A stretch of DNA of 60,536 bases, taken from NCBI RefSeq assembly GCF_002270485.1, contig NZ_NQOG01000016.1, positions 1 through 60,536 of the forward strand. The letters run 5' to 3'. Below, one piece after another: positions 32,223 through 47,904 of the stretch. Numbering within the stretch: the first letter of the stretch is position 1; each line of letters starts with the position of its first letter. The notes under the pieces were generated by a model. The model saw nothing but the letters and a program-made list of their open reading frames with translations, was not told the origin of the DNA and ran no database searches. The translations under genes were made by a program, and so were the position numbers. Origin of the DNA: Anaerostipes hominis (ex Lee et al. 2021). Its GTDB lineage: Bacteria > Bacillota > Clostridia > Lachnospirales > Lachnospiraceae.

Positions 32223-32251
32223 TTGACAGAAATCATAGGAAAGTCTAAAAT
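32223..32251 (+). promoter_or_regulatory. Promoter of the third PRD regulator gene
   Basis: TTGACA (32223-32228), 17 bases, TAAAAT (32246-32251). It is followed by AATAATAAATAATATATA, which recurs before the glycyl radical enzyme gene, and by AATAAACAATGATAAA, which recurs with one change before the epimerase/PTS operon. Confidence 0.68.
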
Positions 32252-32305
32252 AATAAATAATATATATCAATAAACAATGATAAAAAGTAATAAAAAGGAG
32301 TTCCT

Positions 32306-34279
32306 ATGCTTTCCAAGACTGCACAAAAAATAATGAAAGTGCTGATCCATCAGGATGATGATTTTATCACCTATGAGAGAATTGCAGGGATGCTGGAGAT
32401 TTCTGAGCGGAGTGTACATAATTATATGAAAGAGGCAGCTGAATTTTGTGAAGAGAATGGATATCAGCTTGTCCGCCGGAGGGGAAGAGGGGTCTGTCTT
32501 CAGGCAGGGCTGCACAGAAAAGAATTGGAACACTTATTTCCGAAAGACCATATCCCCTGCGAAACAAGAAAATACCGGATGCGCTATATTGTCAGGACTC
32601 TGATTGAAAATGGGGAGCCTTACACGGCGTCTTTGTTTGCGGAGGAGCTGTTTGTCTCCAAATCCACGATCCGCACAGATATCGAGAAGGCAAATAAGAT
32701 TTTAGAGCCGGACAGAGTATGTATCAGGCAGATCGTGGGAAAAGGAATTGTCATACAGGGCCGGGAATTTGACCTGAGAAAAGTTCTGGTATGCCAAAAT
32801 CAGAAAGTTTATCTGGAGGAGGCTCCGAAGTCAGCCACAGTGCCGGATTACAGAATCGATCCGGTGACATATGCAAGATTTTTATCTCAGTACAGAAAGA
32901 GCACAGCCGATAAGGTAATTTCCTGTATTCAGCAGCTGGAGAGACAGATCGGCATGCAGTTTAATGATTATACATTTTGTATGCTGGCCGAATATACGAG
33001 CAGTCAGATGAATCGGCTGAGAGGAGGACATTGTCTGGAAGAGTCTATGATCAGCAGACTTACACTGGTAGAGGAGATCGCCGACTGGACCGACATACTC
33101 ACAGGACTTCTGAACAGACAATTCCGGATGAACATTGACCCGAGGGAGGGATTGTATCTATATCTTCTGCTTCTCGGAGCGGAAGTACAGAACAGCAGCC
33201 GCATTGTTAATAAAAAATTTCTGATCGAAAAAGAGATAGATATCGAAGACGCCGCCCAGAACATGATTCAGTACATTTCTTCCATTGTGGGGAGAGATTT
33301 CAGGGAAGATCCTCTGCTAAAGACAAGTACAGCCTTATTTCTGAACAGTTCCTTCATAAGAGTAAAGTTTGGGTTTGAGATTAAAAATCCTTTTCTGGAA
33401 GAGATAAAGAGGACGTACTCAGCCATATTTTCAGCCTGTTTTACGGCAAGCAAAGAATATGAAAGCCTTGTGGGCGCATTTCCGACGGAAGATGAGATCT
33501 CATATATGGCAATTCTCTTTGGCGGGGCCATGGTTCAGAATAAGAGGGACATCAATACAGTCGTTATCGGCAGCGGCGGAGTGGGGATCGCTCAGATCAT
33601 TACCAGGAAGATCGAACATAAGATTATGGATATCAATGTTACATCTGTACTCCCGGCAAATGCAGGAGTCATGATCGATGAGAGTCAGTATGACCTTGTG
33701 ATCACCACGGTTCCCTCATTGAAGATCAAACACCCTTATGTGGTTTACACGACTCCGCTTGTGGGAGAGCAGGATGTCTTCAGGATCAAGAAAATTTGTC
33801 ATGAGATGAAAGAAGAGAAAAAGAATCTGGAAAAACGATGGACCATTAAGAATTTGATGGAGGACGAACTGATTTTTCTGGAGTCGGGGACATTGACGAA
33901 AAAAGCCCTGTTACATAAGGTGTGCAGAAAGCTGCAGGACGGGGGCTATGTAAAGGACGGCTTTTATGAGGATGTACTGAGTAGGGAAGAGATCAGCGTA
34001 TCCGTGCTGGGAGGAGGCGTTGCGGTTCCACATGGCATGGCAAATCTCGTTGAAAAGCCGGCTGTGGCGATCATAAAGACGGACCATAAAGTTGAGTGGG
34101 ATGAGGGAAGCGTGGATGTGATATTTTTACTGGCGCTGAATTTTGAAGACATTCAGTCCACCAGAGCATTTTTTGAAACATTTTACGAAATGACGATGGA
34201 AAAGAATGCGGCAAAACTCATAAGGAAAGCGGGTAATAAAGAAGAGATCAAGAATATTATCATGATGAATTCGGATTAA
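32306..34279 (+). CDS. PRD-domain transcriptional regulator with EIIA domain
   Basis: 657 residues, starting 7 bases after AAAAAGGAG. It has an N-terminal HTH (ERIAGMLEISERSVHNYM), a second HTH (EELFVSKSTIRTDIEKAN), two PRD-like regions (about 195-400) in which the usual phospho-acceptor histidines are not obvious, an EIIB-like region (TVVIGSGGVGIAQII, no cysteine) and a C-terminal EIIA domain with VAVPHGMANL near 578. Signal input may therefore come mainly through the EIIA histidine. It is the probable activator of the epimerase-PTS and glycyl-radical-enzyme operons downstream. Confidence 0.87.
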   Translation: MLSKTAQKIMKVLIHQDDDFITYERIAGMLEISERSVHNYMKEAAEFCEENGYQLVRRRGRGVCLQAGLHRKELEHLFPKDHIPCETRKYRMRYIVRTLIENGEPYTASLFAEELFVSKSTIRTDIEKANKILEPDRVCIRQIVGKGIVIQGREFDLRKVLVCQNQKVYLEEAPKSATVPDYRIDPVTYARFLSQYRKSTADKVISCIQQLERQIGMQFNDYTFCMLAEYTSSQMNRLRGGHCLEESMISRLTLVEEIADWTDILTGLLNRQFRMNIDPREGLYLYLLLLGAEVQNSSRIVNKKFLIEKEIDIEDAAQNMIQYISSIVGRDFREDPLLKTSTALFLNSSFIRVKFGFEIKNPFLEEIKRTYSAIFSACFTASKEYESLVGAFPTEDEISYMAILFGGAMVQNKRDINTVVIGSGGVGIAQIITRKIEHKIMDINVTSVLPANAGVMIDESQYDLVITTVPSLKIKHPYVVYTTPLVGEQDVFRIKKICHEMKEEKKNLEKRWTIKNLMEDELIFLESGTLTKKALLHKVCRKLQDGGYVKDGFYEDVLSREEISVSVLGGGVAVPHGMANLVEKPAVAIIKTDHKVEWDEGSVDVIFLLALNFEDIQSTRAFFETFYEMTMEKNAAKLIRKAGNKEEIKNIIMMNSD

Positions 34280-34345: not shown

Positions 34346-34465
34346 TGCAGTTGTTTACCCGCAATTTTTGGTTTTGCCTCGGTGCAGTGCAGCGTTTTTG
34401 CAGATATACAACTGCAAAAAGAGAACAAAAGAGATATTGAATAATAATATAAATAAATATAAAAT
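34346..34465 (+). promoter_or_regulatory. Inverted repeat and promoter of the epimerase/PTS operon
   Basis: TGCAGTTGT (34346) and ACAACTGCA (34408) form a 9-base inverted repeat upstream of a promoter TTGAAT-N17-TAAAAT (34437-34465). An AT-rich block with AATAAACAAGGATAAA follows. The repeat could be a distant two-part operator. Confidence 0.5.
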
Positions 34466-34505
34466 AATAATAAACAAGGATAAATAATAAAAAGAAAGGA
34501 AAGCT

Positions 34506-35225
34506 ATGAAAAGAGCAGCGGAAAAGGAACTTATGGTTTCTGCATCTGTTTCCTGCATGGATCTGTGTCATCTGGCAGATGCCGTAGAGGAAGCCGAGGA
34601 AGCGGGAATCTCGTTTTTTCACTATGATATGGTGGATGGAAGGTTTAATGATTGTTTCATATTATCGGAAACACTCTTAAAACAGATGAGAGGCATAACC
34701 AGCCTCCCCATAGAAGCTCATCTGGCCGCTTATGAGCCAGAGCGCTATATCGGCATGTATGCCGATGCGGGAGCAGATTACATAGCGGTACACTATGAGG
34801 CGATGAAAGAACCTCTCAGGGTGCTTGAACAGATCAGGAAAGCGGGTGTCCAGCCGGTATTGGCATATAAATCCACGACACCCCCGGGGGAGAATTTCAT
34901 CACACTGGCAGGTGAAGCGGCCTGGATCTTAAAACTCACAGTCGACCCCGGGTTTTCAGGACAAAAGATGCAGGAGGGGGCCCTCGGTCACATCAGGCAG
35001 ATGAGGACGATGCTGAACGATACAGGACTGAAGACGAAGATTCAGGCAGACGGCAACATCAATCAGGATACGATTCCGAGAGCGGTAAAAGCCGGGGCAG
35101 ACATCTTAACCGGAGGAACATCGGGATTGTTTCTTAAAGGAAAGACAGTAAAGCAATGCTGTGAAGACATGCTAAAAGCGGCAGAAGAAGCAAAAGGAGT
35201 AAAGAACTATGGAATTAATGAATGA
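34506..35225 (+). CDS. Ribulose-phosphate 3-epimerase-like protein (sugar-phosphate epimerase)
   Basis: 239 residues. It is clearly related to ribulose-phosphate epimerase but diverged: FFHYDMVDGRFND replaces the HIDVMDG motif, PIEAHLAAYEPERY the DVHLM motif, LTVDPGFSGQKM the VNPGFGGQ motif, and IQADGNI the VDGG motif. Metal and catalytic Asp/His residues are kept. Relatives include D-allulose-6-phosphate 3-epimerase and uncharacterised PTS-linked epimerases. It overlaps the EIIA gene by 17 bases and so is part of the PTS operon. It likely epimerises the imported sugar phosphate. Confidence 0.82.
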   Translation: MKRAAEKELMVSASVSCMDLCHLADAVEEAEEAGISFFHYDMVDGRFNDCFILSETLLKQMRGITSLPIEAHLAAYEPERYIGMYADAGADYIAVHYEAMKEPLRVLEQIRKAGVQPVLAYKSTTPPGENFITLAGEAAWILKLTVDPGFSGQKMQEGALGHIRQMRTMLNDTGLKTKIQADGNINQDTIPRAVKAGADILTGGTSGLFLKGKTVKQCCEDMLKAAEEAKGVKNYGINE

Positions 35226-35637
35226 AGGACTGATCGTATTTGACCTGGAAGCGGCGTCACCGGAAGAAACAGTCTCTAAGATTGCCGGAGTAATGGAAGA
35301 ACAGGGACGTTTGAATGACAGGGCGGCATATGTGGCGGATGTTATAAAGAGAGAGGAGGGAGCGCCGACAAGTATAGGATTTCTGATCGCCACACCCCAT
35401 GCGAAATCGGTCCATGTAAAGGAACCGTCTCTGGCATTTGCAAGGCTGAAAGACCCGGTGCAGTGGGCGAATGAAAAAGTCCAGATGGTCTTTCAGATCG
35501 CAGTTCCGGACCCGGGACAGGGAGATAAGCATCTGGAGATTCTGGCGAAATTGTCAAGAAAGATCATCCATGATGACTTCAGAGAGCAGCTCATGAATGT
35601 AACCAATGAAAAAGAAGTGTTGGAACTGATACTATAA
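35209..35637 (+). CDS. PTS EIIA component, fructose family
   Basis: 142 residues. The phospho-acceptor His is residue 64 in LIATPHAKSVHVKEP, a good fructose-type EIIA loop, preceded by IKREEGAPTSIG. GGAG lies 9 bases upstream inside the epimerase gene. It passes phosphate to the EIIB encoded at the end of the operon. Confidence 0.88.
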   Translation: MELMNEGLIVFDLEAASPEETVSKIAGVMEEQGRLNDRAAYVADVIKREEGAPTSIGFLIATPHAKSVHVKEPSLAFARLKDPVQWANEKVQMVFQIAVPDPGQGDKHLEILAKLSRKIIHDDFREQLMNVTNEKEVLELIL

Positions 35638-35651: not shown

Positions 35652-36718
35652 ATGAACGAACTTGCAGGTATTTTTAAAGATACAAGAAAACATCTGATGA
35701 ACGAGTGTCCCATATGATTCCGTTTGTAGTGACCGGAGGTATTTTAATGGCAGTTGCCGTCATGGCATACGGGCAGGGAGGTGTTCCGCCGGAAGGGACC
35801 TGGATGGCAACTTTATGGAACTTTGGTTCTACCGCGCTGAATTTGATGGTACCGGTTTTGTCAGCATATATTGCGGCATCCATCGCAGACCGTGCGGGTA
35901 TTTGTCCCGGATTTGTTGGAGGAATGATCTCCATCAGTGTCGGAGCCGGATTCCTGGGAGGAATCGTAACAGGACTTCTTGGCGGAATTGTATGCTACTA
36001 TTTAAAAAAGATCAAAGTGCCGAAAGCATTGAGCTCCATCATGCCCATCATGATCATTCCGATCGTCGGTTCTTTAGTAACCATGGGATTTATGCAGTAT
36101 GTCCTTGGAGCACCGATCGCAGGAATTATGGACGGAATGACAAAGGTTATGGAGCATTTGGGAAATGGGAATAAAGTAATTTTAGGTGCAGTATGCGGAC
36201 TGCTAGCAGGCTTTGACTTTGGCGGACCATTTAATAAGGTAGCATATACCTTTGGCGTGGCTACGGTAAGTGCCGGCGTGTATACATATGCAGGGCCTAT
36301 GGCTGTGACAATGACAGCACCGCCGCTTGGATGTGCTCTGGCAGCATTTTTAGCAAAGAAAAAGTTTACCCAGGAAGAGAGAGAAGCAGCAAAGAGTGCA
36401 GTTGCCATGGGCTGTGTAGGGATTACTGAGGGAGCTATTCCGTTTGCGGCCAACGACCCGCTGCGTGTCATTCCATCGACCATGATCGGTTCGGCTGTAG
36501 GCGGAGCCGTGGGTTATCTGTTCAATATTACAAATCCTGTTGCCTGGTCCGGCCTGATTATGATTCCTGTCCTTGGAAATCCAATTGGATTTCTTGTATC
36601 CCTTGCCATTGCCGTCGGAGTGACTGCGGGGCTGATGATTCTGCTGAAGAAGGATATTACAGAAGAGGCAGCAGGCACAGACGAAGGGGATTTAGACATT
36701 GATCTTTCATTTGAATAA
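35652..36718 (+). pseudogene. PTS EIIC component, fructose family, frameshifted near its N-terminus
   Basis: The natural start is the ATG at 35652, after GGAGGAGAGAGAAG. It gives MNELAGIFKDTRKHLMNE, which matches the start of fructose-type EIIC, then runs into a stop at 35715-35717. The rest of the protein lies in another frame, from GTG 35705 or ATG 35714 (MIPFVVTGGILM...) to 36718. Adding one G near 35703 would rejoin them as ...HLMNGVSHMIPFV, about 355 residues. The stop and a possible restart overlap as ATGA. The restarted part still has all membrane segments, AASIADRAGICPGF, the DFGGPFNK loop and GITEGAIPF. It may be a real lesion, a sequencing error, or be rescued by coupled restart. 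Confidence 0.8.
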
Positions 36719-36752: not shown

Positions 36753-37067
36753 ATGAAATTTTTAGCGGTTACGGCATGCCCGTCAGGGGTGGCACATACC
36801 TATATGTCAGCGGAGGCGCTGGAGAAAGCGGCCAGGAAACACGGGATCGAGATTAAAGTGGAGACACAGGGGTCTATCGGGATAGAGAACCAGATTACAC
36901 CGGAAGATCTGATCGGAACGGATGCGGTGATCCTTACGAAGGATATGCCGATCAAGGATGAGGACAGATTTGAAAATATTCCAAAGGTCAAAGTAGGAGT
37001 CAGTGATGCTGTGAAGAAGGCAGAGGCAATCATTACGAAGTTGGAAAAAATGGTGAAGGAACTTTAA
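36753..37067 (+). CDS. PTS EIIB component, fructose family
   Basis: 104 residues. It starts MKFLAVTACPSGVAHTYMSA, with phosphocysteine at residue 9 and the AHTYM motif of fructose EIIB. AGGAGG lies 8 bases before the ATG. It ends the epimerase-EIIA-EIIC-EIIB operon, before a bidirectional terminator. Confidence 0.9.
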   Translation: MKFLAVTACPSGVAHTYMSAEALEKAARKHGIEIKVETQGSIGIENQITPEDLIGTDAVILTKDMPIKDEDRFENIPKVKVGVSDAVKKAEAIITKLEKMVKEL

Positions 37068-37077
37068 ACAAAAACAA

Positions 37078-37107
37078 GGGCGGCTTTCGTAAAGCCGCCC
37101 CCTTTTA
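37078..37107. terminator. Bidirectional terminator
   Basis: GGGCGGCTTT-CGT-AAAGCCGCCC followed by CCTTTT on the plus strand and TTGTTTTTG on the minus strand. It lies between the PTS operon and the convergent ABC transporter module. Confidence 0.9.
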
Positions 37108-37118
37108 TACCGTTTTAT

Positions 37119-38330
37119 CTATCTTGTCTCTGCTTTTTGATAGATCCTGTATAATACAGGCTGAAGAATTAAGCATATGACCGCATATACAGGAATGATA
37201 ACGGCTGCTGTGGTCATGACTTTTCCTCCTAATTCCACAAGTCCGGATTCTTTAATATCTATATATATTTCTAATAACTGATCCGGAAAGAAAGAACACA
37301 CTCCCGGCAATGTAATGATCCTGCTTAAAAAAGGAAGCGCACACAGTACAATGAACGGCACAATGACGGCTGTTGGAGTCGAACGTGTGATTGCCGATAC
37401 AAGCATAGCAAGTATGGAAGCAAACAGCGTACCAATATAACCGCCTGCTGCAATAAATAGATATGCCTGCAGAAAAGAAATATTATAAACACTTCTCCAC
37501 ATGTCCAGCTGAATAGGGCAATTTGCACCGTCTGTGCCCAATACGAAAAGTACAGTCAGAGTATATAAAAACACAAAAACAACATAAAAAACCGTGGTAA
37601 TTAAAAATCCCGCCCACATCTTTGATAAAATCCCTTTACTCCTTCCTAATTTGGCTGAAAAGAAAATAGAATCTGCCTTTGTCTGAAACTCATCTGAAAA
37701 AATACCGGATACCAAAAAACCAATGATTAACGCTAAAATCAGAATAAATGTGGATATGTTTTGCAGCAATGCGCTCCATCCGTCTATATATTCATAGTGA
37801 AAAGGTGTTTCCAGGTTTTTATATTGCCGTATCAAAAATTTTTTTTGTTCATCCGTAAAAGTTTCTTTTCCCGAATCAAGATATTCTTTTAAAGCAGAAA
37901 TTCTTTTTTTGTAAATATTTTTCACATCCCTGCCGGAAACATGGTCAGCCGCAAAACCGTCGTAATCTCTATATTCACTGAATGCACAATTAATAACATC
38001 AAGAATGCCGGTAATATCCTGTATTTTTGCAAATGCTTTATCCTGTTCCAGCAGGTCATCTGACAATGCTTCTTTGGAATTTTTAATTTTCTTATTTTTC
38101 TCCAGCACCTTTTGAAGGACATCCTCGGTAAGATCACCTGCCCATTTGTTCTGGGCTGTTCTAAGGTTTTTTGCCGCTGAGATTCCAGTCGAGCTGTTTC
38201 CGTTATCATCAATATACTCAACTTTGTTAATTGTCAGAATACTGGTTAGAATGAGGGTCACCAATAAAACCAGAACGGCTATCCTGTTTTTAAACTTAGA
38301 AAATATTTTTTTCAGTTCAAATCGCAGCAT
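37119..38330 (-). CDS. ABC-2-type transporter permease
   Basis: About 403 residues from the ATG at 38328-38330; AGGTG lies 6 bases before it inside the ATPase gene, and ATG 38336 is an alternative. The frame itself opens at 38372. One N-terminal membrane segment (FKNRIAVLVLLVTLILTSIL) is followed by a ~190-residue extracytoplasmic domain rich in Lys and Glu, then five to six C-terminal membrane segments from about residue 215. This layout is that of ABC-2 permeases of peptide or lantibiotic export and self-protection systems. It overlaps the ATPase gene, so the two form one transporter. The substrate is not evident. Confidence 0.83.
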   Translation of the reverse strand: MLRFELKKIFSKFKNRIAVLVLLVTLILTSILTINKVEYIDDNGNSSTGISAAKNLRTAQNKWAGDLTEDVLQKVLEKNKKIKNSKEALSDDLLEQDKAFAKIQDITGILDVINCAFSEYRDYDGFAADHVSGRDVKNIYKKRISALKEYLDSGKETFTDEQKKFLIRQYKNLETPFHYEYIDGWSALLQNISTFILILALIIGFLVSGIFSDEFQTKADSIFFSAKLGRSKGILSKMWAGFLITTVFYVVFVFLYTLTVLFVLGTDGANCPIQLDMWRSVYNISFLQAYLFIAAGGYIGTLFASILAMLVSAITRSTPTAVIVPFIVLCALPFLSRIITLPGVCSFFPDQLLEIYIDIKESGLVELGGKVMTTAAVIIPVYAVICLILQPVLYRIYQKAETR

Positions 38331-39204
38331 TTTCATCACCTGCCTTTTCTCCAAAGTAATATAAAAATACATCCTCTAATGATGCTTTTACACATTTGGC
38401 ATTTGTAAACGGCCTTTCCTGAGAAATAATGCGCAAAATAATTCCGTCCGGTTCTGTTTTCATATTGGAAATCCTGTACTTTTTTATAAAATCAGAGACC
38501 ATATTCTTTTCTACAAAACATTCCCATACTGTTTCCGGCATAGAGTTTATGATTTCATCTGCAGATCCTTTGTGCATGAGCTCTCCGTCTTTCATCAGCC
38601 AGATTTCATTGGCTATATATTCAATATCAGAAACAATGTGAGTAGACAGAAGAACCAGTCTTTGCTCTGAGAGTTCACTGATTAAGTTTCGGAAACGAAT
38701 CCTTTCATTTGGGTCAAGCCCTGCCGTGGGCTCATCAAGTATGAGGATTTTTGGATTATTCAGCATTGCCTGTGCAATCCCTGCCCTGCGTTTCATGCCG
38801 CCGGATAATTTTTTCATTTTTTTATGCGCTGCCTTTGAAAGCCCTACTTTAAAAAGTAATTCCTTTACCCGCTCTTTTGCGGCAGCAGGAGGGATTCCTT
38901 TTAATGCTGCAATATAAAGCAAATAATCCTGCACCGAAAATTGTGGGTAAAACCCAAATTCCTGCGGCAAGTATCCTAATAATCTGCGGTATTCGCTGTC
39001 CATTTTGAAAATATCTCTGCCGTCACAGCGGATCGTTCCGCTTGTAGGTTTCAGCAAGGTACACAGCATTCTCATTAACGTAGTTTTTCCTGCTCCGTTT
39101 ACTCCCAACAGACCATATACTCCGTTTTTCATAGTGAGATTTATATGGTTTACAGCAGTAAAATCTCCAAATTTTTTTGTTAAATGATCAAGTTCTAATT
39201 TCAT
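38317..39204 (-). CDS. ABC transporter ATP-binding protein
   Basis: 295 residues from the ATG at 39202-39204 (GGAGG 9 bases upstream). It has Walker A GVNGAGKTTLMR near residue 34, the Q-loop LPQEFGFYPQF near 78, the signature KKLSGGMKRR near 133, Walker B ILILDEPTAGLDP near 153 and the switch His in LLSTHIVSDIE near 187. The C-terminal ~75 residues are of the type seen in BcrA/NatA-like export ATPases. It energises the permease gene that follows. Confidence 0.93.
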   Translation of the reverse strand: MKLELDHLTKKFGDFTAVNHINLTMKNGVYGLLGVNGAGKTTLMRMLCTLLKPTSGTIRCDGRDIFKMDSEYRRLLGYLPQEFGFYPQFSVQDYLLYIAALKGIPPAAAKERVKELLFKVGLSKAAHKKMKKLSGGMKRRAGIAQAMLNNPKILILDEPTAGLDPNERIRFRNLISELSEQRLVLLSTHIVSDIEYIANEIWLMKDGELMHKGSADEIINSMPETVWECFVEKNMVSDFIKKYRISNMKTEPDGIILRIISQERPFTNAKCVKASLEDVFLYYFGEKAGDENAAI

Positions 39205-39949
39205 CAAGCGGCACCTCCAAATATTTATTACAACTTTTTAAAATACGGCAGACAGCAAAGACAAGGAAGAGAATTGCAAATCCCAATAAAGTAAACCAGA
39301 TCGGAACAGCAACGATTTTATATAGACTTTCATTTAAAATGATAAACAGCCATACGGCGCTCCATATAATACATAAAATGATTGCTGCCGTTTCACTGAA
39401 ACAATATTTGCTGCATAATATACCAAAACAAATACAGGCAGTGATGCTCAATGGAAAAAGAAATTGAATGACCAGCTCTGACACCCCAAAATGCAGTCCC
39501 GCTGCAGCAGTCCCGCAAAATACAGTAATCAGAAAGGTATCTATAATGCCAAATAACAGCATACGTGCCGCATATACTTGTTTCAGAGAATAGTAAGAAG
39601 CAGCTTCTATTTCCATACACTCATATGACCTGTTTTTCCATAGTTCAGGAATCATAAGTATTACAAACAGTGACGCCATTACCCCCATACTTTTTTTTGC
39701 GTATATTTCATCGGTTACAGAGGTTAAAAGAATCCACAATGTTACTAGAAGTAAGAACTGGAGAACCCACCACTTTTTTTGTATGATTTTTGTCTGTATC
39801 CATAAAAATTCACGGTAAGACAGCACTCTTTTCCGTTCTGCCGTTAAAAAGGCAGTTTTTGATTTGCGGATTGTTTCTTGTATTCTTTCCTCATGCAGTT
39901 CTGCCTGTACGGTTTCTTTATACCTTTTCATCCTTTCTTCCAAATTCAT
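39188..39949 (-). CDS. Membrane protein, possible anti-sigma factor or ABC partner
   Basis: 253 residues. The first ~55 are soluble and charged (MNLEERMKRYKETVQAELHEER) and the rest holds about six hydrophobic segments. It overlaps both the sigma factor gene upstream (32 bases) and the ATPase gene downstream (17 bases), so all four genes are one coupled unit. The place next to an ECF sigma gene and the cytoplasmic N-terminal helical region fit an anti-sigma role, but no zinc-binding HxxxCxxC motif is present. It may equally be a second permease subunit. I do not recognise a family. Confidence 0.68.
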   Translation of the reverse strand: MNLEERMKRYKETVQAELHEERIQETIRKSKTAFLTAERKRVLSYREFLWIQTKIIQKKWWVLQFLLLVTLWILLTSVTDEIYAKKSMGVMASLFVILMIPELWKNRSYECMEIEAASYYSLKQVYAARMLLFGIIDTFLITVFCGTAAAGLHFGVSELVIQFLFPLSITACICFGILCSKYCFSETAAIILCIIWSAVWLFIILNESLYKIVAVPIWFTLLGFAILFLVFAVCRILKSCNKYLEVPLDEIRT

Positions 39950-40475
39950 AATTTTCCTCCTTTCTCATCCATTCTTCTAACTGCTGCTTGGCTCGTTTTA
40001 AACGGTATTTCACTAATGGGAGACCTATCTGTAATGTTTCAGAAATTTCTCTGAGTTTCAGTTCCTGAAAGTAATAAAGAGTAATTACCTCTCTCAATTC
40101 ATCTGGTAATTGTTTAAGTGCCTGCTCAATAAAAATTTCGTTCAAAACATACTCCATTTGATGCACCGCTTTATGTTCCCTGACGAATTCTGTTTCTTCC
40201 ACAGGTGTTTCTTTTATTTTTTTCAAATAATCCTTACATAAGTTACCTGCTATCGTATATAGATAGTTCAAAGTTTTTCCTCTGTAATGATAATCAGACA
40301 ATTTTATAAAAAAACGTATAAAAGTTTCCTGTGTTAAATCTTCAGCATACTTTTGATCAAAACAATGAGAATGGCAGTAAATTAAAATATTTTTGTAATA
40401 TGTATGAATAAACAAATCAAATGCAGTATCATCGCCTTGTTTCATTTTTCTGATTAATCGAAAATCACTGTGCAC
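39918..40475 (-). CDS. ECF-type RNA polymerase sigma factor
   Basis: 185 residues with a GTG start at 40473-40475, 5 bases after AAAGGAGG; the frame opens at 40520, but the ribosome site lies inside that extension. Region 2 is visible as AFDLFIHTYYKNILIYCHSH and DLTQETFIRFFIKL, region 4 as LKQLPDELREVITLYYFQELKLREISETLQIGLPLVKYRLKRA. It probably turns on its own four-gene operon in response to envelope stress or a peptide exported by the ABC transporter. The gene's own promoter appears to be of the housekeeping type. Confidence 0.88.
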   Translation of the reverse strand: MHSDFRLIRKMKQGDDTAFDLFIHTYYKNILIYCHSHCFDQKYAEDLTQETFIRFFIKLSDYHYRGKTLNYLYTIAGNLCKDYLKKIKETPVEETEFVREHKAVHQMEYVLNEIFIEQALKQLPDELREVITLYYFQELKLREISETLQIGLPLVKYRLKRAKQQLEEWMRKEENYEFGRKDEKV

Positions 40476-40522
40476 AAAATCCTCCTTTCTCATTGCTGGA
40501 ACTTTAAAATACTTATCCACTT

Positions 40523-40551
40523 ATTATATATAACGAATCAGCAGTGGACAA
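40523..40551 (-). promoter_or_regulatory. Promoter of the sigma-factor/ABC operon
   Basis: On the minus strand: TTGTCC (40546-40551), 17 bases, TATAAT (40523-40528). The transcription start would fall near 40516, inside the upstream extension of the open frame, which supports the internal GTG start of the sigma gene. Confidence 0.65.
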
Positions 40552-40599
40552 AGATAGTACGAAGAAAAATTTTTTAATACACTAAATTTGCATTATGTC

Positions 40600-40628
40600 T
40601 TGCAAAACAATAATAAATAATATATAAT
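40600..40628 (+). promoter_or_regulatory. Promoter of the glycyl radical enzyme operon
   Basis: TTGCAA (40600-40605), 17 bases, TATAAT (40623-40628), embedded in AATAATAAATAATATATA, an 18-base block also found before the PRD regulator gene at about 32251. Confidence 0.68.
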
Positions 40629-40681
40629 AATATAAAACAATAAATTTAAATATATAGAACAAAACAGGGAAGGAGCAGTAT

Positions 40682-43036
40682 ATGGAGGGTGTTTTTCAGA
40701 CAGACAGAGTAAAATACTTAAAAGATAAAATGTTATCGGAACCAAGGTATGCTTCCATTGAGCAGGCACTCATTATAACGGACAGCTACAAACGACATGA
40801 GGATCAGCCGAGGATCATTCAGAGAGCGCTGGCATTAAAAGCATCATTGGAGAAGATTAAGATCAGTGCAGAACCGGAGGAACTGATTGTGGGCAACCGC
40901 ACGGCAGGAGTCCGCTATGGGGTGGTCTTTCCGGAAAGCGGAAGCACATGGGTGGATAAGGAGTTTGAGACTCTTCCCACAAGGCCGCAGGATAAGTTCC
41001 ATGTCCATCCGGAAGACATTGAAACATTCAGAAAAGAGATTAAACCTTACTGGGAAGGAAAGTCTCTGGAAGATGTCCTAAATGAGAGATATGGAAAAGA
41101 AATAAACGAGATATCAAAAGTAGTGAAGATTAACCAAAAGGACCATGCCCAGGGGCATATCTGCCCTAACTGCGTGACATGGCTGAAGCTTGGTCCGGCA
41201 GGACTTCAGGAACAGGCAAGAGAGAAACTTACATCCTGCAGTGAGGAGCAGAGAAATTTCTACGAAAGTGTCGTTCTGGTGATGGAAGGCGTCAGAAACT
41301 TTATGCTGCGCTATCATGACCTGATGATGGAGCTTTCAGAAGATCAGGACGATGAAGCCAAGAAAGAATCTATGATCTGTGTGGCAAAAAACTGCAAAAA
41401 GCTGAGTCAGCATCCGGCAGAGACCTTTCATGAAGCGGTGCAGTCTATATGGTTTTTGTTTGTGGTTCTGCAGATGGAATCCAATGCTTCTTCATTTTCA
41501 CCGGGGCGTCTGGACCGCCACCTGATCTCTTACTATGAGAATGACATAAAAGAAGAAAGAATCACAAAACAGGATGCACTCGAAATCATCGAATGTATGT
41601 GGCTCAAATTCAATGAGATCGTTTATATGAGAAATTCTCACGGTGCAAAATATTTCGCAGGATTTCCAATCGGGTTTAATATAGCTGTCGGAGGCCAGGA
41701 TGAGCTTGGAAATGATTATTCCAATGATCTTTCGTTTTTATTCCTGGAGGCCCAGAAACACCTTGGACTTCCTCAGCCGAACCTTTCCGTGAGGCTCCAC
41801 GAGGGCACAGGGGATGATCTTCTATTTGAAGCGGTCCGTGTCGTGTCAAAGGGCAGCGGAATGCCTCAGTTTTTTAATGACAAAGCAGTGATCCCATCCG
41901 TCATGGAGCTTGGGATCGAAGAAAAAGATGCCATGGATTATGCCATCGTTGGATGCGTGGAGCTGACGACACAGGGAAATAACCTCGGATGGAGCGATTC
42001 TGCCATGTTTAATCTGAATAAGGCGCTGGAAGCCGCAATGACCGGCGGAATCTGTCTGCTCACAGGAGAGAAGATCGCTCCTGATTACGGAAGCCTTGAG
42101 ACTTATGAAACGTTTGAGGAACTGGAAGATGCATTCCAAAAACAGATCGATTATTTCATGGACAAAATGATCCTGGCCTGTGAGGAGGTAGAGAAGGCAC
42201 ACATCGACCTGCTGCCGTCTCCGTTTCTCTCAGCATCGATCGACGACTGTATGGAAAGAGGAATAGACGTGACAGCAGGAGGAGCAAAATACAACTTATC
42301 CGGTATCCAGATGATCCAGGTGGCAAATCTTGCAGACAGCCTGGCGGCAGTAAAACAGATGGTCTATGATGATAAGAAAATTGAGCCGGAAAGACTGCTC
42401 CATGCATTAAAGACAAACTTTGAAGGAGATGAGGTCATGAGGACCATGCTCTTAAATAAAGTGCCTAAGTACGGAAACGACGTGGACTGGGTGGACGCCA
42501 TGGGTACAAAATGGGCCGAATATTTTAAAAACCGTCTGCGCACATTTAAAAACTACCGCGGAGGTCCATACCACACGGGAATGTATACAGTCTCAGCCCA
42601 TGTACCCATGGGGGAAAATGTCGGGGCGTCACCGGACGGACGCTACGCAGGAGAGCCTCTTGCCGACGGCGGTATGTCTCCGGTTTATGGAAGAGATATG
42701 AAAGGTCCGACGGCGGTCCTGAAATCCGTATCAAAACTGGATAAAAATCTTACCACAAACGGAGGGCTGCTGAATATGAAATTTCTGCCTGAATTTTTTA
42801 AAAACGAATCCGGTATCCGAAAATTTGCCGGGTTTCTGCGAAGCTTTGTAGACCTGGAAATCCCTCATATACAGTTTAATGTTGTGCGGAGAGAGGATCT
42901 CATAGCAGCAAAGAAAAATCCGGAGCAGTACAGGGGCCTTACGGTCCGGGTGGCCGGATATACCGCATATTTCACAGAACTTGCAGATGAACTTCAGAAT
43001 GAGATCATCGCCCGCACCAGCTACGGAGACATATAA
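40682..43036 (+). CDS. Glycyl radical enzyme, C-O lyase/dehydratase type (PflD/YbiW-like)
   Basis: 784 residues. The radical-bearing glycine is residue 759 in VRVAGYTAYF, and the thiyl-radical cysteine is residue 425 in IVGCVELTTQG. The Cys-x-Glu pair (C425, E427) places it with dehydratase/lyase members rather than true pyruvate formate-lyase, which has two adjacent cysteines. Activase, fructose-6-phosphate-aldolase-like and fructose-PTS genes are near, as in E. coli pflD-pflC-frw-fsaB. From the literature as I know it, E. coli YbiW and PflD open 1,5-anhydroglucitol- and 1,5-anhydromannitol-6-phosphate to 1-deoxyfructose-6-phosphate. I infer a similar substrate here. GGAAGGAG precedes the start. 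Confidence 0.85.
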   Translation: MEGVFQTDRVKYLKDKMLSEPRYASIEQALIITDSYKRHEDQPRIIQRALALKASLEKIKISAEPEELIVGNRTAGVRYGVVFPESGSTWVDKEFETLPTRPQDKFHVHPEDIETFRKEIKPYWEGKSLEDVLNERYGKEINEISKVVKINQKDHAQGHICPNCVTWLKLGPAGLQEQAREKLTSCSEEQRNFYESVVLVMEGVRNFMLRYHDLMMELSEDQDDEAKKESMICVAKNCKKLSQHPAETFHEAVQSIWFLFVVLQMESNASSFSPGRLDRHLISYYENDIKEERITKQDALEIIECMWLKFNEIVYMRNSHGAKYFAGFPIGFNIAVGGQDELGNDYSNDLSFLFLEAQKHLGLPQPNLSVRLHEGTGDDLLFEAVRVVSKGSGMPQFFNDKAVIPSVMELGIEEKDAMDYAIVGCVELTTQGNNLGWSDSAMFNLNKALEAAMTGGICLLTGEKIAPDYGSLETYETFEELEDAFQKQIDYFMDKMILACEEVEKAHIDLLPSPFLSASIDDCMERGIDVTAGGAKYNLSGIQMIQVANLADSLAAVKQMVYDDKKIEPERLLHALKTNFEGDEVMRTMLLNKVPKYGNDVDWVDAMGTKWAEYFKNRLRTFKNYRGGPYHTGMYTVSAHVPMGENVGASPDGRYAGEPLADGGMSPVYGRDMKGPTAVLKSVSKLDKNLTTNGGLLNMKFLPEFFKNESGIRKFAGFLRSFVDLEIPHIQFNVVRREDLIAAKKNPEQYRGLTVRVAGYTAYFTELADELQNEIIARTSYGDI

Positions 43037-43037
43037 T

Positions 43038-43949
43038 ATGAAAGGAACAATCTTTGACATCCGTAGATTTTCAACCCATGACGGGGACGGTATCCGGACG
43101 ACGGTCTTTTTCAAAGGCTGTCCCCTGTCCTGTGTGTGGTGTCAGAACCCGGAGGGGATTTCATTAAGGCGGCGTCCGCTATATTTTGAGAACCGGTGCA
43201 TACACTGTAAAATGTGTGCGGCAAAAAGCGTGAACGGCGGAATGAAATGCAGGGGAGATACGATGCTCATGAATATTGACGCGTCGGAAGACTGGGAATA
43301 TCTTGCAGAATTGTGCCCGTCAGGTGCTATCGCCATGGATTCCAGGGAGTACAGCGTGAAAGAAGTGATGGAAGAGATCAGAAAAGACATGGTATTTTAC
43401 AGGCATGGCGGCGGAGTCACTTTGTCAGGAGGAGAGCCGCTGCTTCAATGGGAGTTTGCACTGGAAATACTGGAGCAGTGCAAAAAAGAAGGAATTCATA
43501 CTGCGATAGAGACTTCCCTGTATGCAGAACAGGAGGTACTTGGAAAACTTTTGCCGTATCTGGATCTGATCTTTGCAGATTTTAAAATAATGGATGGGGA
43601 AAGACACATAAAGTACGTGGGAGTACCAAATCCGAAGATCAAAGAAAATATAAGGTATCTGCTGGAATCGGAAAAGAAAGACCAGGTCATCATACGGACA
43701 CCGATGATCCCGGGCCTTACCGCGTACAGAGATAATCTTACGAAAATTGCCGGATATATCAGCAGGATATATCCCGATGTTTCATATGAAATTCTAAACT
43801 ATAACCCCCTGGCGGAAGCCAAGTATCATTTAATTGGCAAAGAGTTCTGTTTTGCCGAAAATCCAGAGATGTATTCCAAATCACAGATGAGAGAATTTGA
43901 GAGCTGGGCAAGACAGGGCGGTGTAAGCAATACGATCATGGAAATTTAA
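43038..43949 (+). CDS. Glycyl-radical enzyme activating protein (radical SAM)
   Basis: 303 residues from the ATG at 43038, 1 base after the lyase stop, with CGGAG just upstream; the longer frame overlaps the lyase. The radical SAM cysteines are C28, C32 and C35 in GCPLSCVWCQNPEG. A ferredoxin-like insert follows with C54, C57, C60, C71 and C93 (CIHCKMC ... CPSGAI), fewer cysteines than activases with two extra clusters. LSGGEPLLQ is the SAM-binding GGE motif. It uses SAM to place the radical on Gly759 of the enzyme encoded before it. Confidence 0.93.
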   Translation: MKGTIFDIRRFSTHDGDGIRTTVFFKGCPLSCVWCQNPEGISLRRRPLYFENRCIHCKMCAAKSVNGGMKCRGDTMLMNIDASEDWEYLAELCPSGAIAMDSREYSVKEVMEEIRKDMVFYRHGGGVTLSGGEPLLQWEFALEILEQCKKEGIHTAIETSLYAEQEVLGKLLPYLDLIFADFKIMDGERHIKYVGVPNPKIKENIRYLLESEKKDQVIIRTPMIPGLTAYRDNLTKIAGYISRIYPDVSYEILNYNPLAEAKYHLIGKEFCFAENPEMYSKSQMREFESWARQGGVSNTIMEI

Positions 43950-43964
43950 ATAAAGGAGAACAAG

Positions 43965-44645
43965 ATGAAATTTATTATTGATGATGCAGATGTGGAAGCT
44001 ATTAAAAACTTATATGAGTATTTTCCTGTGGAAGGGGTAACTACCAACCCGTCCATCTTAGCCAAGAGCAAACGGCCTCCATATGAGGTGCTTGGTGAAA
44101 TTCGTGAATTTATCGGAAAAGATGCGGACCTTCACGTGCAGGTTGTCTCAAAGAGTGCCGAAGATATGGTCACAGAAGCAAAAGAAATGCAAAAACGACT
44201 TGGAGAGAATACATATATTAAAGTCCCCACTACAAGGGAAGGATTAAAGGCAATGAAACTTCTGTCTGCCAAAGGGGTAAAGATAACGGCCACGGCCATT
44301 TATACTCCGATGCAGGCATTTTTAGCGGCAAAGGCGGGCGCCGCTTATGCAGCGCCATATGTAAACCGTATCGATAATCTGGGGGCCGATGGAATTGAGA
44401 CGGTGAAGAAGATTCACGATATTTTTCAGAACAATGGGCTTAAAACAGAAGTGCTGGCTGCCAGTTTCAAGAATTCGCAGCAGGTATTGGAACTCTGTGC
44501 CTATGGGATCGGTGCTGCAACCATCGCGCCGGATGTCATAGAGGGACTGATCAAAAATGACGCTGTAACCGCCGCAGTAGGCGCATTCACAAAAGACTTT
44601 GAAGGACTGTGCGGCGAAGGAAAGACCATGAAGGATTGTTGTTAA
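43965..44645 (+). CDS. Fructose-6-phosphate aldolase/transaldolase family protein
   Basis: 226 residues, the length of the short FSA/TalC branch. The Schiff-base lysine is residue 86 in YIKVPTTREG. VTTNPSILAKS near residue 25, ITATAIYTPMQA near 110 and AASFKNSQQV near 168 complete the family pattern. FSA-type enzymes split fructose-6-phosphate or 1-deoxyfructose-6-phosphate to glyceraldehyde-3-phosphate and dihydroxyacetone or hydroxyacetone. Coming third after the glycyl radical enzyme and activase, it most likely cleaves the lyase product. Confidence 0.88.
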   Translation: MKFIIDDADVEAIKNLYEYFPVEGVTTNPSILAKSKRPPYEVLGEIREFIGKDADLHVQVVSKSAEDMVTEAKEMQKRLGENTYIKVPTTREGLKAMKLLSAKGVKITATAIYTPMQAFLAAKAGAAYAAPYVNRIDNLGADGIETVKKIHDIFQNNGLKTEVLAASFKNSQQVLELCAYGIGAATIAPDVIEGLIKNDAVTAAVGAFTKDFEGLCGEGKTMKDCC

Positions 44646-44696
44646 AGCAGTATAGAAAAAACAGGGGCCGATTGAGAGCTTTTTCAGTGATTAATA

Positions 44697-44724
44697 AAAG
44701 CGCATGACAAGAGCATGCGCTTTT
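44697..44724 (+). terminator. Rho-independent terminator of the glycyl radical enzyme operon
   Basis: AAAGCGCATG, loop ACAAGAG, CATGCGCTTTT, 50 bases after the aldolase gene. Confidence 0.85.
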
Positions 44725-44734
44725 GTTAATAAAT

Positions 44735-44873
44735 TTATTTTAAGTATTTTTTCAGAATGCCGGTTAATTCTTTTACGTCAACAGGCTTTTTTGCGACCTC
44801 CCAGTTAAGTTCGTTATCTTCAGCAAGCAGGATACGATGGCCGTTCATATCAGGAAGCTTCCAGTCTATAAGC
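44735..44873 (-). pseudogene. Collapsed remnant of a hybrid kinase or response-regulator protein
   Basis: Reading the minus strand from about 44873 to the stop at 44735 gives LIDWKLPDMNG, then HRILLAEDNELNWEVA, then KKPVDVKELTGILKKYLK. These are, in order, the phospho-acceptor region of one receiver domain, the first strand of a second receiver, and the last helix of a receiver, joined without the sequence that should lie between. At least two internal deletions are needed. It directly abuts the IS3 remnant on the plus strand. Confidence 0.65.
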
Positions 44874-45161
44874 TATGGGGTGTCCCCAACACCATCTTCT
44901 AAAAATATAATGAATGCTCTGAATGCAGCAATAGAGATTACATCTGACTGTCCATGTCGTAGAACATTTCATTCAGACCAGGGCTGGGGCTATTAAATGA
45001 AAGCATATGTTCGTACATTGCAGGAACATCGGATTTTTCAGAGTATGTCCCGAAAAGGAAACTGCCATGATAATTCTGTTATGGAAAACTTTTAACGAAT
45101 AAAAGAGAAGCTAGGATGGCTGAGTCCGGTTGAATACAGACTCAGTCTCTTGGCGGCATAA
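44873..45161 (+). pseudogene. IS3-family transposase (OrfB) C-terminal remnant
   Basis: In one plus-strand frame the region reads ...TFHSDQGWGY, a stop (44994-44996), MKAYVRTLQEHRIFQSMSRK, GNCHDNSVMENF, a stop, then IKEKLGWLSPVEYRLSLLAA and a stop at 45159-45161. HSDQGWxY, QSMSRKGNCxDNxxMENF and LSPVEYR are the DDE-integrase end of IS3-family OrfB, and the last part is joined after a deletion of the segment holding the remaining helices. The two internal stops make it inactive. No OrfA or terminal inverted repeats can be recognised. Confidence 0.82.
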
Positions 45162-45169
45162 AAGAAAAA

Positions 45170-45194
45170 TGCGAAGTGGATTTTCCACTTCGCA
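45170..45194 (-). terminator. Terminator of the thiC-transporter operon
   Basis: TGCGAAGTGGA-AAA-TCCACTTCGCA read on the minus strand, followed by TTTTTC. It lies 28 bases beyond the transporter stop codon. Confidence 0.85.
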
Positions 45195-45222
45195 ATAAAG
45201 TCTGACTTTTAGGTGTCACCTA

Positions 45223-46578
45223 TTACACTGTGATAACTCCCATTCCCTGGAATATGGAGAACAGGAGAATGGCTATGATACAGATCGGTGCAAAAAATCT
45301 AATCATTGGAATATATAAATTTTTTCGTTTGAAATCTCCTGAACTTTCCACTTCATCAATGATTTCTTTTGGTTTGATAACATAAGCGGCAAATATGCAG
45401 GTGCAGAATGCTGCAATCGGCATCAAGACGCTGTTGCTCAGGAAGTCGAAGAAATCCAGAAAACTTAAGCCAAGAAGCTTAATATGACCCCATATACCAA
45501 ATCCCAGAGATGACGGCACTGCCATGATCATTGCAATGACAAACATGGTAATGCAGGCTCTGATGCGGGATAAATGAAACTTATCCATTACGATGGAGAC
45601 CAGCGTTTCCAAAAGAGAAATCGCAGAAGTCAGCGCCGCGAAGAAAACTAAAATGAAGAAAACAGCTCCGATGACAGTTCCCAGAGCCATGCTGTTAAAT
45701 ACCTTCGGAAGCATTTTAAACATCAGGGATGGTCCGGATGCAAGCATATCCGCATTGCCTCCTGAAAATACAAAGACCGCAGGAACGATCATAAGCCCTG
45801 ACAGGAATGCAACACCTGTATCAAAAATCTCTACCTGTGAAACAGACTTCTCAAGGTTAGACTTTTTCGGCATATAGGAACCAAATGTAATCATGATTCC
45901 CATAGCAAGGGACATGGAGTAGAACAGCTGTCCCAGAGCAGCAAGGAATGTGGTAGGTGTCAGATCCCTGAGATTTGGCTTGATGTAATACAATACACCT
46001 TCCATGGCACCCTTTCTGGTAATGCAGTATACGGAGATTCCGATCAACAATACAATTAAGACCGGCATCAGGATCGTACTGACTTTTTCAATACCGCCTT
46101 CAACCCCGAGAGCTACGACAATCAATACAAGTCCTGCAAAGATCAGGAGCCATACCATAGGGCTTACGGACTGGCTGATAAAGCCTTCAAAGAAAGTATC
46201 TCCAGCCGCCTGGCTGATATTTCCGCTTATTGAGACAAACAGATATTTTGTTACCCATCCTCCAATGACACAGTAATAAGGGAATATAATAAACGGTATG
46301 ATACTGGTCAGATAACCGATAAACTTATACTTTTTATTAAAATAGGAAAATGCATGTATGGCACTTTTTCCGGTTCTCCGGCCAATGGCAATCTCGGTGA
46401 TCATCAGAGTAAACCCAAAGGTTACTGCAAGTATCAGATAGATCAAAAGGAAGCTTCCTCCTCCGTATTTAGCTGCCAAGTATGGAAATCTCCATATGTT
46501 TCCTAATCCTACCGCTGATCCCGCAGTCGCAAGCACAAAGCCGATTCTGCTGGAAAAGCTGCCTCTTTCTTCATTCAT
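45223..46578 (-). CDS. Sodium-dependent transporter, NSS (SNF) family
   Basis: 451 residues with about eleven to twelve membrane segments. The signature SRIGFVLATAGSAVGLGNIWRFPYLAAKYGGG (residues 8-39, in parts) with its unwound TM1 is typical of the neurotransmitter:sodium symporter family, whose bacterial members carry amino acids or similar small molecules with sodium. AAGGAGG lies 13 bases before the start. It begins only 24 bases after the thiC stop with no terminator or promoter between, so it appears to be in the TPP-riboswitch-controlled transcript. Substrate unknown. Confidence 0.9.
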   Translation of the reverse strand: MNEERGSFSSRIGFVLATAGSAVGLGNIWRFPYLAAKYGGGSFLLIYLILAVTFGFTLMITEIAIGRRTGKSAIHAFSYFNKKYKFIGYLTSIIPFIIFPYYCVIGGWVTKYLFVSISGNISQAAGDTFFEGFISQSVSPMVWLLIFAGLVLIVVALGVEGGIEKVSTILMPVLIVLLIGISVYCITRKGAMEGVLYYIKPNLRDLTPTTFLAALGQLFYSMSLAMGIMITFGSYMPKKSNLEKSVSQVEIFDTGVAFLSGLMIVPAVFVFSGGNADMLASGPSLMFKMLPKVFNSMALGTVIGAVFFILVFFAALTSAISLLETLVSIVMDKFHLSRIRACITMFVIAMIMAVPSSLGFGIWGHIKLLGLSFLDFFDFLSNSVLMPIAAFCTCIFAAYVIKPKEIIDEVESSGDFKRKNLYIPMIRFFAPICIIAILLFSIFQGMGVITV

Positions 46579-46602
46579 AAATCTGTGAAATCCTCCTTTA
46601 GT

Positions 46603-47904
46603 TTATACTACGTCGACATCTTCACCTGCCAACACAGCATTCATATTTCGAACGGAACACATTTTTCCGCACATGGTACATGTATCTTCTCTTTCAGGTT
46701 TTGATTCAGCGCGGTACCTTCTTGCCTTTTCAGGGTCTAAAGCCAGATCAAACTGGGCCTCCCAGTCAAGCTTCTGCCTTGCCTTGGCCATCTGGTTGTC
46801 CCAATCGATTGCTCCTTTTATGCCTTTGGCGATATCCGCCGCATGGGCTGCAATCTTTGAAGCCATAATGCCTTCTTTTACATCGTCTACATTTGGAAGA
46901 CGCAGATGCTCGGCCGGTGTAACATAACACAGGAAGCTTGCACCGGATGCCGCTGCAATGGCACCTCCGATCGCTGAAGTGATATGGTCATATCCAGGGG
47001 CGATATCGGTAACCAGCGGCCCTAACACATAAAAAGGCGCACCTTTGCATATAGTCTGCTGAATTTTCATATTTGCCTGTATCTGGTCCATTGGCATGTG
47101 TCCGGGTCCTTCGATCATTACCTGGACATCCTTTTTCCAGGCCCGGGCCGTCAATTCTCCCAAAGTTACCAGCTCCTCGATCTGAGAAATATCGCTGGCG
47201 TCTTTAATGCACCCCGGACGGCAGGCATCCCCGAGGCTTAGAGTAACGTCATATTCATTACAAATGTCCAAAATCTCATCATAGTATTCAAAGAACGGAT
47301 TTTCACAGCCGGTAGCTTCCATCCAGGCAAAGATCAATGATCCGCCGCGGGAAACAATGTTCATCTGTCTCTTCATGGCCTTAAAACGGTCTGCAGTACT
47401 GCGGTTAATCCCGCAGTGAATGGTCATGAAGTCGACTCCGTCTTCCGCATGCATTTTAAATATGTCGATCCATTCTCTGGATGTGATATCCTTGAGAGCC
47501 TTGTTGTAGTATACGATGGCATCGTAAATCGGAACAGTGCCCAGAATGGCCGGGCATTCAGCCACAAGCTTTCTTCTGAAGGTCTGAGTGTCCCCGAAAG
47601 AAGAAAGATCCATGATCGCTTCAGCACCCATGGAGACAGCCTGGTTTACTTTCTTCATTTCCACATCCATATTCAGACAGTCTCTGGATGTTCCAAGGTT
47701 GACATTGATCTTTGTTTTCAGGGAATTGCCGATGCCGAACGGCTTTAAGCATTTATGATTTTTGTTGGCCGGTATGACGATTGTTCCGGCGGCAACTTCA
47801 TTCATAAGCTTTTGAAGATCCATTCCTTCATAGGCAGCTACAGTTTCCATTTCCTTGGTTGCGATGCCGGCTCTGGCGGCATTCATCTGTGTTGTGTAAG
47901 TCAT
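46603..47904 (-). CDS. thiC: Phosphomethylpyrimidine synthase
   Basis: 433 residues from the ATG at 47902-47904, preceded by GAGGAGGTTGTAAG; the frame opens at 47925. It is the short ThiC form. Motifs include [43 protein letters not shown], and the C-terminal cluster cysteines CTMCGKMC. ThiC turns aminoimidazole ribotide into the HMP-phosphate half of thiamine, using SAM and a [4Fe-4S] cluster. Cysteine spacing here is CX2CX3C, one residue shorter than the textbook CX2CX4C, which I recall seeing in clostridial ThiC. A TPP riboswitch lies upstream. Confidence 0.96.

Follow-up and report, generated by a model that had tools for sequence, protein, structure and literature searches.

The 60,536-nucleotide stretch of Anaerostipes hominis (ex Lee et al. 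2021) analysed here (contig NZ_NQOG01000016.1 of assembly GCF_002270485.1, hereafter the window) carries a gene for a glycyl radical enzyme (GRE), followed by genes for its activase and for an aldolase of the fructose-6-phosphate aldolase (FSA) type, and preceded by genes for a regulator, a 3-epimerase and a fructose-family phosphotransferase system (PTS; Table 1). We consider it probable, at roughly 0.7, that this locus is a regulon which serves to degrade a 1,5-anhydrohexitol, or a close relative of one, under anaerobic conditions, with the GRE acting as a PflD-like lyase. A first-pass annotation of the same DNA had placed the GRE, the activase and the FSA-like aldolase where we find them, and both the list of open reading frames (ORFs) and the Pfam domains agree with it. 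Its catalytic residues are also as it gave them, the radical glycine G759 lying within RVAGY and C425-V426-E427 within GCVE. The observation is thus confirmed overall: the genes are real and lie where it put them. The interpretation built on it stands in part. The E. coli-like gene set, the residue columns shared with PflD and the apparent link to the epimerase hold, whereas the GRE does not fall into the PflD or the YbiW group. The operator-like element common to several units, the oxidoreductase, the insert and the EIIC lesion described below had escaped the first-pass annotation.

The glycyl radical enzyme and its closest relatives

The enzyme has the marks of its family, namely the PFL-like (690.2 bits) and Gly_radical (101 bits) domains, both over the Pfam cut-off, the RVxGY radical motif with G759, the catalytic cysteine C425 and an adjoining activase gene. 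Among solved structures its best sequence matches are to PflD (8yjo, 653 bits; 8id0, 617), with YbiW at 478, and it is 42% identical to E. coli PflD. Two trees were built, one of 62 rows by a quick method and a careful one of 30 rows from which the long CutC branches were left out. In the quick tree the window GRE and 44 relatives form one clade (support 100), beside PflD (99) and apart from YbiW (98). The careful tree recovers this clade (100/100) and its union with PflD (100/100), the PflD group itself having 94/91, and sets the YbiW group, which excludes the window GRE, apart (100/100). Such a tree was the check that the first-pass annotation had proposed, and its outcome goes against placing the enzyme with either E. 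coli lyase: it belongs to a sister clade of PflD, whose members here are mostly Bacillota and spirochaetes.

Alignment columns were compared as well. Taking as the clade's state a residue present in at least 95% of its rows, and the YbiW-type rows and three diol dehydratases as the contrast, we found eight columns common to the clade and two PflD sequences that differ in the contrast rows (A269, S270, V314, Q396, F398, T531, T636 and H640). The clade is set apart from PflD and all others at 39 columns, including T430, N433, L435 and S438, which sit just past C425 and E427. On a short contig of the same genome (C38, 5585 bases; L117), a GRE gene is present as two frames.

A shared operator-like element

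Ahead of the GRE gene, the window and all seven relatives looked at have in common an AT-rich element of 40 bp that resembles a promoter/operator. Either the PRD protein or a DeoR-type regulator may bind it. A matrix was built from five relatives, leaving out the sites of the window and of two sister genomes, G008 and G009. In a scan of the window it scored 53.3 bits before the GRE gene, 37.6 before the epimerase-PTS unit and 24.7 before the regulator gene; the next-best site had 4.8 bits, and the maximum over 100 block shuffles of the window was 10.6. The equivalent sites score 55.0 (GRE), 39.6 (regulator) and 24.2 bits (epimerase) in G008, and 57.0, 35.6 and 16.4 bits, respectively, in G009.

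The element extends to more distant relatives. Neighbourhoods were compared by tblastn and clustering in 80 named loci of 116 GRE relatives, 36 of these loci being 20 kb or longer. Four training loci were set aside, as were nine that either lacked a complete GRE frame or had fewer than 300 bases upstream; the remaining 67 include kin of the training rows (e.g., L024 and L036). Of these 67, 34 have a site scoring at least 15 bits no more than 1 kb before the GRE gene, a level reached in 3 of 458 control stretches and in 4 of 1340 shuffles. Several loci have the site 5' of a DeoR-type gene that itself precedes the GRE gene. Over the whole genome (3.33 Mb), a 27-base core pattern allowing up to three mismatches gave five placements at three sites, with one for the backward control. 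Two of the sites belong to the GRE and the epimerase-PTS unit, and the third lies in the promoter of a Gfo/Idh/MocA oxidoreductase gene on contig C23; the regulator site was not recovered by this genome-wide pattern. We regard it as strongly indicated, at the level of sequence, that the epimerase shares a putative operator with the GRE, and the proposal that an epimerase had been added to the gene set gains from this apparent tie.

A scan for consensus promoters is by itself no evidence (32 found versus 24.4 +/- 5.7 in shuffles), and the GRE element is called promoter-like because it is conserved, not because of that scan. Together with the terminator-like hairpin behind the EIIB gene, a similar hairpin being visible by eye in G008, this element makes the PTS and the GRE look like separate transcription units. 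On the same two grounds a single operon running from the epimerase to FSA, as the gene order had suggested, was dropped, and the locus would be one regulon made of several transcription units. Riboswitch control was also considered and rejected: an Rfam scan of 30000-48500 at gathering scores matched only the TPP riboswitch upstream of thiC (69.3 bits; riboswitch and gene at 46603-48100, minus strand).

Gene set and proposed pathway

The first-pass annotation had likened the gene set to pflD-pflC-frw-fsaB of E. coli, and this parallel is upheld, with a GRE, an activase, a Frw-like PTS and an FSA-type aldolase occurring together. The EIIB scores above the FrwB-type cut-off, and the truncated EIIC frame matches PRK10478 best (376, cut-off 426). 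The aldolase finds its best solved matches among fructose-6-phosphate aldolases (166 bits) and, when aligned with FsaA and FsaB, has D6, Q59, K85 and Y131, which we take, in numbering and role, to be the FSA residues. The activase ORF runs from 42981 to 43949 by a TTG start, the likely start being the ATG at 43038.

Among the 80 neighbourhoods, 77 have an activase, 48 a DeoR-type regulator, eight a ROK kinase and one (L026) GldA. All but one of the eight loci with a ROK kinase come from spirochaetes (L072, L075, L080, L083, L086, L093 and L094), and these seven have no Frw-type PTS within the stretches fetched; a kinase in place of the PTS would fit a sugar-like substrate in need of phosphorylation. 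The regulator gene adjoins the same set of genes in L102 and L103, the loci of G008 and G009, and also in L028, there without the epimerase. A YbiW-type GRE occurs within the fetched stretch of three of the 80 loci (L042, L048 and L101), and in L114 a PflD-sister GRE is followed by a YbiW-type GRE and FSA. Such proximity of the two GRE types fits a product common to both.

The lyase chemistry that the first-pass annotation had quoted for YbiW and PflD is borne out by one source, a review (PMC12441222), with 1,5-anhydroglucitol-6-phosphate (AG6P) as the compound opened by YbiW and 1,5-anhydromannitol-6-phosphate (AM6P) as that opened by PflD. By analogy, the Frw-like PTS would import a 1,5-anhydrohexitol and phosphorylate it at C6, the activase would place a radical on G759, and C425 and E427 would open the ring by C-O cleavage to give a 1-deoxy-2-ketohexose-6-phosphate. 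The FSA-type aldolase would then split this compound into glyceraldehyde-3-phosphate and hydroxyacetone, and a GldA homologue (55%) encoded on contig C26 of the same genome would convert the hydroxyacetone to 1,2-propanediol. For the E. coli pathway, the FSA and 1,2-propanediol steps were reportedly described by Ma et al. in 2024. The epimerase and the oxidoreductase may widen the entry to C3 epimers or to 1,5-anhydrofructose.

A candidate oxidoreductase and anhydrofructose

Contig C23 (L115:7188-12151) carries a YbiW-type GRE, an FSA remnant and the Gfo/Idh/MocA oxidoreductase, with the GRE-type element 5' of the last. Orthologues at 64% lie directly upstream of the GRE gene in L039 and L042 (C. 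ragsdalei and Pelosinus), the order in L039 being EIIA-EIIC-EIIB-oxidoreductase-GRE-activase-FSA. These orthologues, and a promoter that is one of only three core-pattern sites in the genome, argue for a regulon that degrades 1,5-anhydro-D-fructose instead: the PTS would deliver the 6-phosphate, the oxidoreductase would reduce its C2 ketone to AM6P (or AG6P), and the GRE and FSA would follow. The oxidoreductase also resembles dimeric dihydrodiol dehydrogenase over its full length (86.6 bits), and the review (PMC12441222) offers two precedents, dimeric dihydrodiol dehydrogenase as a more efficient anhydrofructose reductase in humans and a rhizobial reductase that yields anhydromannitol. However, the superfamily is broad, and this likeness is suggestive rather than specific. 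The proteins that match it best (144 bits) are uncharacterised, and glucose-fructose oxidoreductase reaches 85.7 bits over the N-terminal part. For the named anhydrofructose reductases the match is confined to the N-terminal half and amounts to just 60-69 bits. In addition, five other loci hold relatives at merely 27-30%, the G008 site is weak (10.3 bits, inside the shuffle range), and no such gene turned up in the part of G009 that was fetched. We treat anhydrofructose as a possible but doubtful substrate of the regulon.

The epimerase and allulose

The epimerase keeps H39, D41, H72 and D182, which are presumably the metal-ligand positions of the RPE superfamily and are invariant in 10 aligned rows. 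It scores below the cut-offs of both the AlsE model (143, cut-off 271) and the Rpe model (152, cut-off 212.6), and a quick tree with long branches puts it in a clade of its own (support 100), together with a paralogue encoded on contig C11 (58%) and members from two further genomes. In the two samples searched, homologues are rare, being found at E<=1e-40 in 1 of 245 other genomes of the order and at E<=1e-50 in 1 of 397 other genomes of the phylum. Its gene is kept beside the PTS in the window, G008 and G009. The C11 paralogue (L124:9332-10015) has a class II aldolase and a zinc alcohol dehydrogenase nearby, together with a PTS that by eye looks mannose-family-like. The canonical Rpe of the window is encoded at 7504-8160, at the end of a stretch (2832-8160) that also holds a class II aldolase, a second fructose-type PTS and a Na/Pi symporter-like protein.

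Enzymes of the RPE family invert the C3 centre adjoining a C2 ketone. Such a site is present in a 1-deoxy-2-ketohexose-6-phosphate, and 1,5-anhydrofructose-6-phosphate might provide one too. The likeliest role of the epimerase, put forward tentatively, would be to convert intermediates of the other C3 configuration (allo/altro) to the fructo form, which FSA can cleave. Another reading takes the epimerase out of the radical pathway altogether and makes it an allulose-6-phosphate 3-epimerase, the same PTS feeding D-allulose to glycolysis. Its best solved match is indeed AlsE (110 bits versus 97 for Rpe), with which it has the CMDL and GTSGLF motifs in common; a subfamily member in L127 adjoins an rpiB-like gene (named by eye), and G308 and G485, two genomes with subfamily members, give no hit with the GRE of the window at E<=1e-60. 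However, an AlsE equivalog (331, cut-off 271) is already encoded elsewhere in the genome, and the epimerase-PTS unit bears the GRE-type operator-like site, so that we put the odds of an allulose role well below even. In a bolder reading, the regulon as a whole would be a stereochemical funnel for 1,5-anhydro sugars: 1,5-anhydrofructose or anhydro-allulose/allitol-type compounds would enter through the PTS as 6-phosphates, the reductase and the 3-epimerase would bring them to the single form opened by the new lyase clade, and both the PflD-sister and the YbiW-type lyase of the genome would drain to one FSA. We hold this scheme to be less likely than not.

State of the locus in this strain

The fructose-type PTS that the first-pass annotation had grouped with the GRE is present (35209-37067), but an insert of about 3.5 kb parts it from the GRE gene, its EIIC gene has a lesion, and the two units look separate. 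The insert, which is no part of the pathway, is absent between the EIIB and GRE genes of G008 and G009, the nearest two relatives in which the locus was found, where the gene order is the same; among 11 genomes searched in the genus it is full length in this one only, with partial matches in five others. Relative to G008 and G009, the EIIC gene has lost one base near its start, as a result of which the long frame starts late, at the GTG at 35705 (35705-36718); the deletion may be real or a draft error. Beside the YbiW-type GRE on C23, all that is left of the FSA gene is a remnant interrupted by stops and by a large gap, whereas G008 has a full-length match there. Judging from C23 and the window, the window FSA is thus probably the one that both lyases of this genome share.

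The deletion, the insert and the degraded FSA remnant could also mean that this strain is losing the locus and has no working pathway from it. This is unlikely in view of the dN/dS values versus G008 and of the promoter-like element 5' of the GRE gene, which is intact. The dN/dS values lie at 0.02-0.06 for the regulator, EIIA, EIIC (337-aa part), EIIB, GRE and FSA, with the activase (0.11) and the epimerase (0.22) higher.

How far the PflD parallel holds

Several observations weigh against the anhydrohexitol reading with a PflD-like lyase. The GRE scores 755 against PRK09983, the NCBIfam formate C-acetyltransferase equivalog that we take to be the PflD model, where the cut-off is 1109, and in the tree it stands outside the PflD group proper. 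Its residues T430, N433, L435, W437 and S438 correspond to I, R, Y, L and H in PflD. The eight shared columns are not constant among PflD-type enzymes: the three PflD-type rows of the genomes G314 and G611 have H at 396 and Y at 398, and two of the three have S at 636. The aldolase lies below all three curated cut-offs (TIGR00875, 221.7 with cut-off 245.95; PRK12653, 228.1 with 306; PRK12656, 211.3 with 214). FSA is present in 44 of the 80 loci (24 of the 36 of at least 20 kb), and the Frw-type EIIC in 12 (6 of the 36), as is the Frw-type EIIB. The epimerase occurs in none of the 80 named loci, including those of at least 20 kb, and we rejected it as a general trait of the GRE clade. Finally, the EIIC lesion and the insert may signify partial decay here.

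On the sequence evidence, the GRE is best described as PflD-like, not demonstrably PflD. Since it belongs to the sister clade and scores below the PRK09983 cut-off, specificity for AM6P is not to be assumed, and AM6P is the leading but unproven substrate. A small-diol dehydratase of the glycerol or 1,2-propanediol type is most improbable: the GRE belongs to the same PFL2-3 family and shares W437 with three diol dehydratases, PflD having L there, and D439 with these dehydratases and PflD alike, but it groups apart from 1r8w, 5i2a and 9rco, is without the G-H pair of the ESxGHS motif, and is linked to FSA and, in some loci, to a sugar PTS.

Table 1. Features of the locus in window coordinates
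Feature	Position	Strand	Evidence
Operator/promoter-like site 5' of PRD regulator	32245..32284	+	24.7 bits, relatives-only matrix; ranks third in window
PRD + EIIA-type transcriptional regulator (REG)	32306..34279	+	Pfam HTH_11, PRD, PTS_EIIA_2
Operator/promoter-like site 5' of epimerase-PTS unit	34442..34481	+	37.6 bits, leave-out matrix; core-pattern site
RPE-family 3-epimerase (EPI), own subfamily beside Rpe and AlsE	34506..35225	+	PF00834
Fructose-family PTS EIIA, start overlapping epimerase end	35209..35637	+	TIGR00848, 104.1 (cut-off 103.5)
FrwC-like PTS EIIC, one-base deletion near start	35652..36718	+	PRK10478, 376 bits; alignment with G008, G009
FrwB-like PTS EIIB	36753..37067	+	NF007783, 146.9 (cut-off 135)
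Terminator-like hairpin 3' of EIIB	37078..37100	+	10 pairs, T-rich tail
Insert: ABC permease, ABC ATPase, membrane-protein-like ORF, ECF sigma factor	37103..40591 (about 37087-40591), borders about +/-20 bp	-	
Promoter/operator-like element of GRE unit, conserved	40605..40644	+	53.3 bits, leave-out matrix
Glycyl radical enzyme, PflD-sister clade, 784 aa	40682..43036	+	
GRE activase, radical SAM	43038..43949	+	TIGR02494, 293 (cut-off 174.35)
FSA-type aldolase	43965..44645	+	PF00923; TAL_FSA, 193 bits
Terminator-like hairpin 3' of FSA	44690..44730	+	17 pairs

Elsewhere in the window, 22903-28004 holds a mannose-family PTS (EIIA, B, C and D), a zinc dehydrogenase and an FGGY kinase.

Comparison with known systems and significance

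E. coli has two parallel sets, pflD-pflC-frw-fsaB-gldA and ybiW-ybiY-fsaA. The locus is like the first, the AM6P lyase pathway (in full pflD-pflC-frwCBD-ptsA-fsaB-gldA), in its GRE, activase, Frw-like PTS, FSA-type aldolase and diagnostic columns. It differs in the sister-clade position and 42% identity of its GRE, in its PRD regulator, in the epimerase and oxidoreductase that come with the same operator-like site, and in having no gldA or ptsA match beside it in the window. With the second set, that of the AG6P lyase, it has an adjoining FSA gene and, according to the review (PMC12441222), the type of reaction in common, but its GRE belongs to a separate clade and has other residues in the compared motifs; a ybiW-type unit is present in the same genome, on another contig.

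A further arrangement is found in one genus (G314 and G611; L172 and L174), where a cluster with GntR and an ABC importer has a PflD-type GRE, an FGGY kinase, a YbiW-type GRE, a ROK kinase and an RPE-family epimerase in that order on one strand. It resembles our locus in bringing PflD/YbiW-type GREs together with an RPE-family epimerase, possibly an independent line of support for the role of the latter. It differs in having an ABC importer and kinases for the PTS and an epimerase of another subfamily, and none of the ORFs in the stretches fetched matches FSA. In Streptococcus anginosus, the available part of PMC12282319 gives a GRE, FSA, GldA and a cellobiose-type PTS with neighbouring locus tags (gldA-fsaA-GRE-PTS); there the PTS is of the Lac family, and that part of the paper has no epimerase. 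The pneumococcal 'afr' lies beside a sialidase gene, with no GRE in the part of PMC5870813 available.

Our literature search extended to neither subscription papers nor preprints. Among the matches listed, the review PMC12441222 alone treats the pathway; PMC12507026 cites that review. The names anhydroallitol, anhydroaltritol, 1-deoxy-D-psicose, 1-deoxyallulose and styracitol do not occur among the matches listed, nor is there anything pertinent on allulose, the epimerase or Anaerostipes.

The radical opening of anhydro-sugar phosphates is already known from E. coli, where it was found recently, and the locus would be a Gram-positive variant of it. What is most likely new here, as far as sequence can tell, is the Gram-positive setting of a radical anhydro-sugar pathway, the distinct lyase clade, and a regulon with a separate 3-epimerase subfamily and a candidate oxidoreductase. 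The substrates concerned are not remote ones: according to the review (PMC12441222), both 1,5-anhydroglucitol and 1,5-anhydrofructose occur in food and in the body, and two neutropenias are marked by a build-up of 1,5-anhydroglucitol phosphate. A separate lyase clade in many Gram-positive and spirochaete genomes, if true, would widen the list of anhydro-sugar-degrading bacteria, and the operator-like element provides a concrete handle for finding the rest of the regulon.

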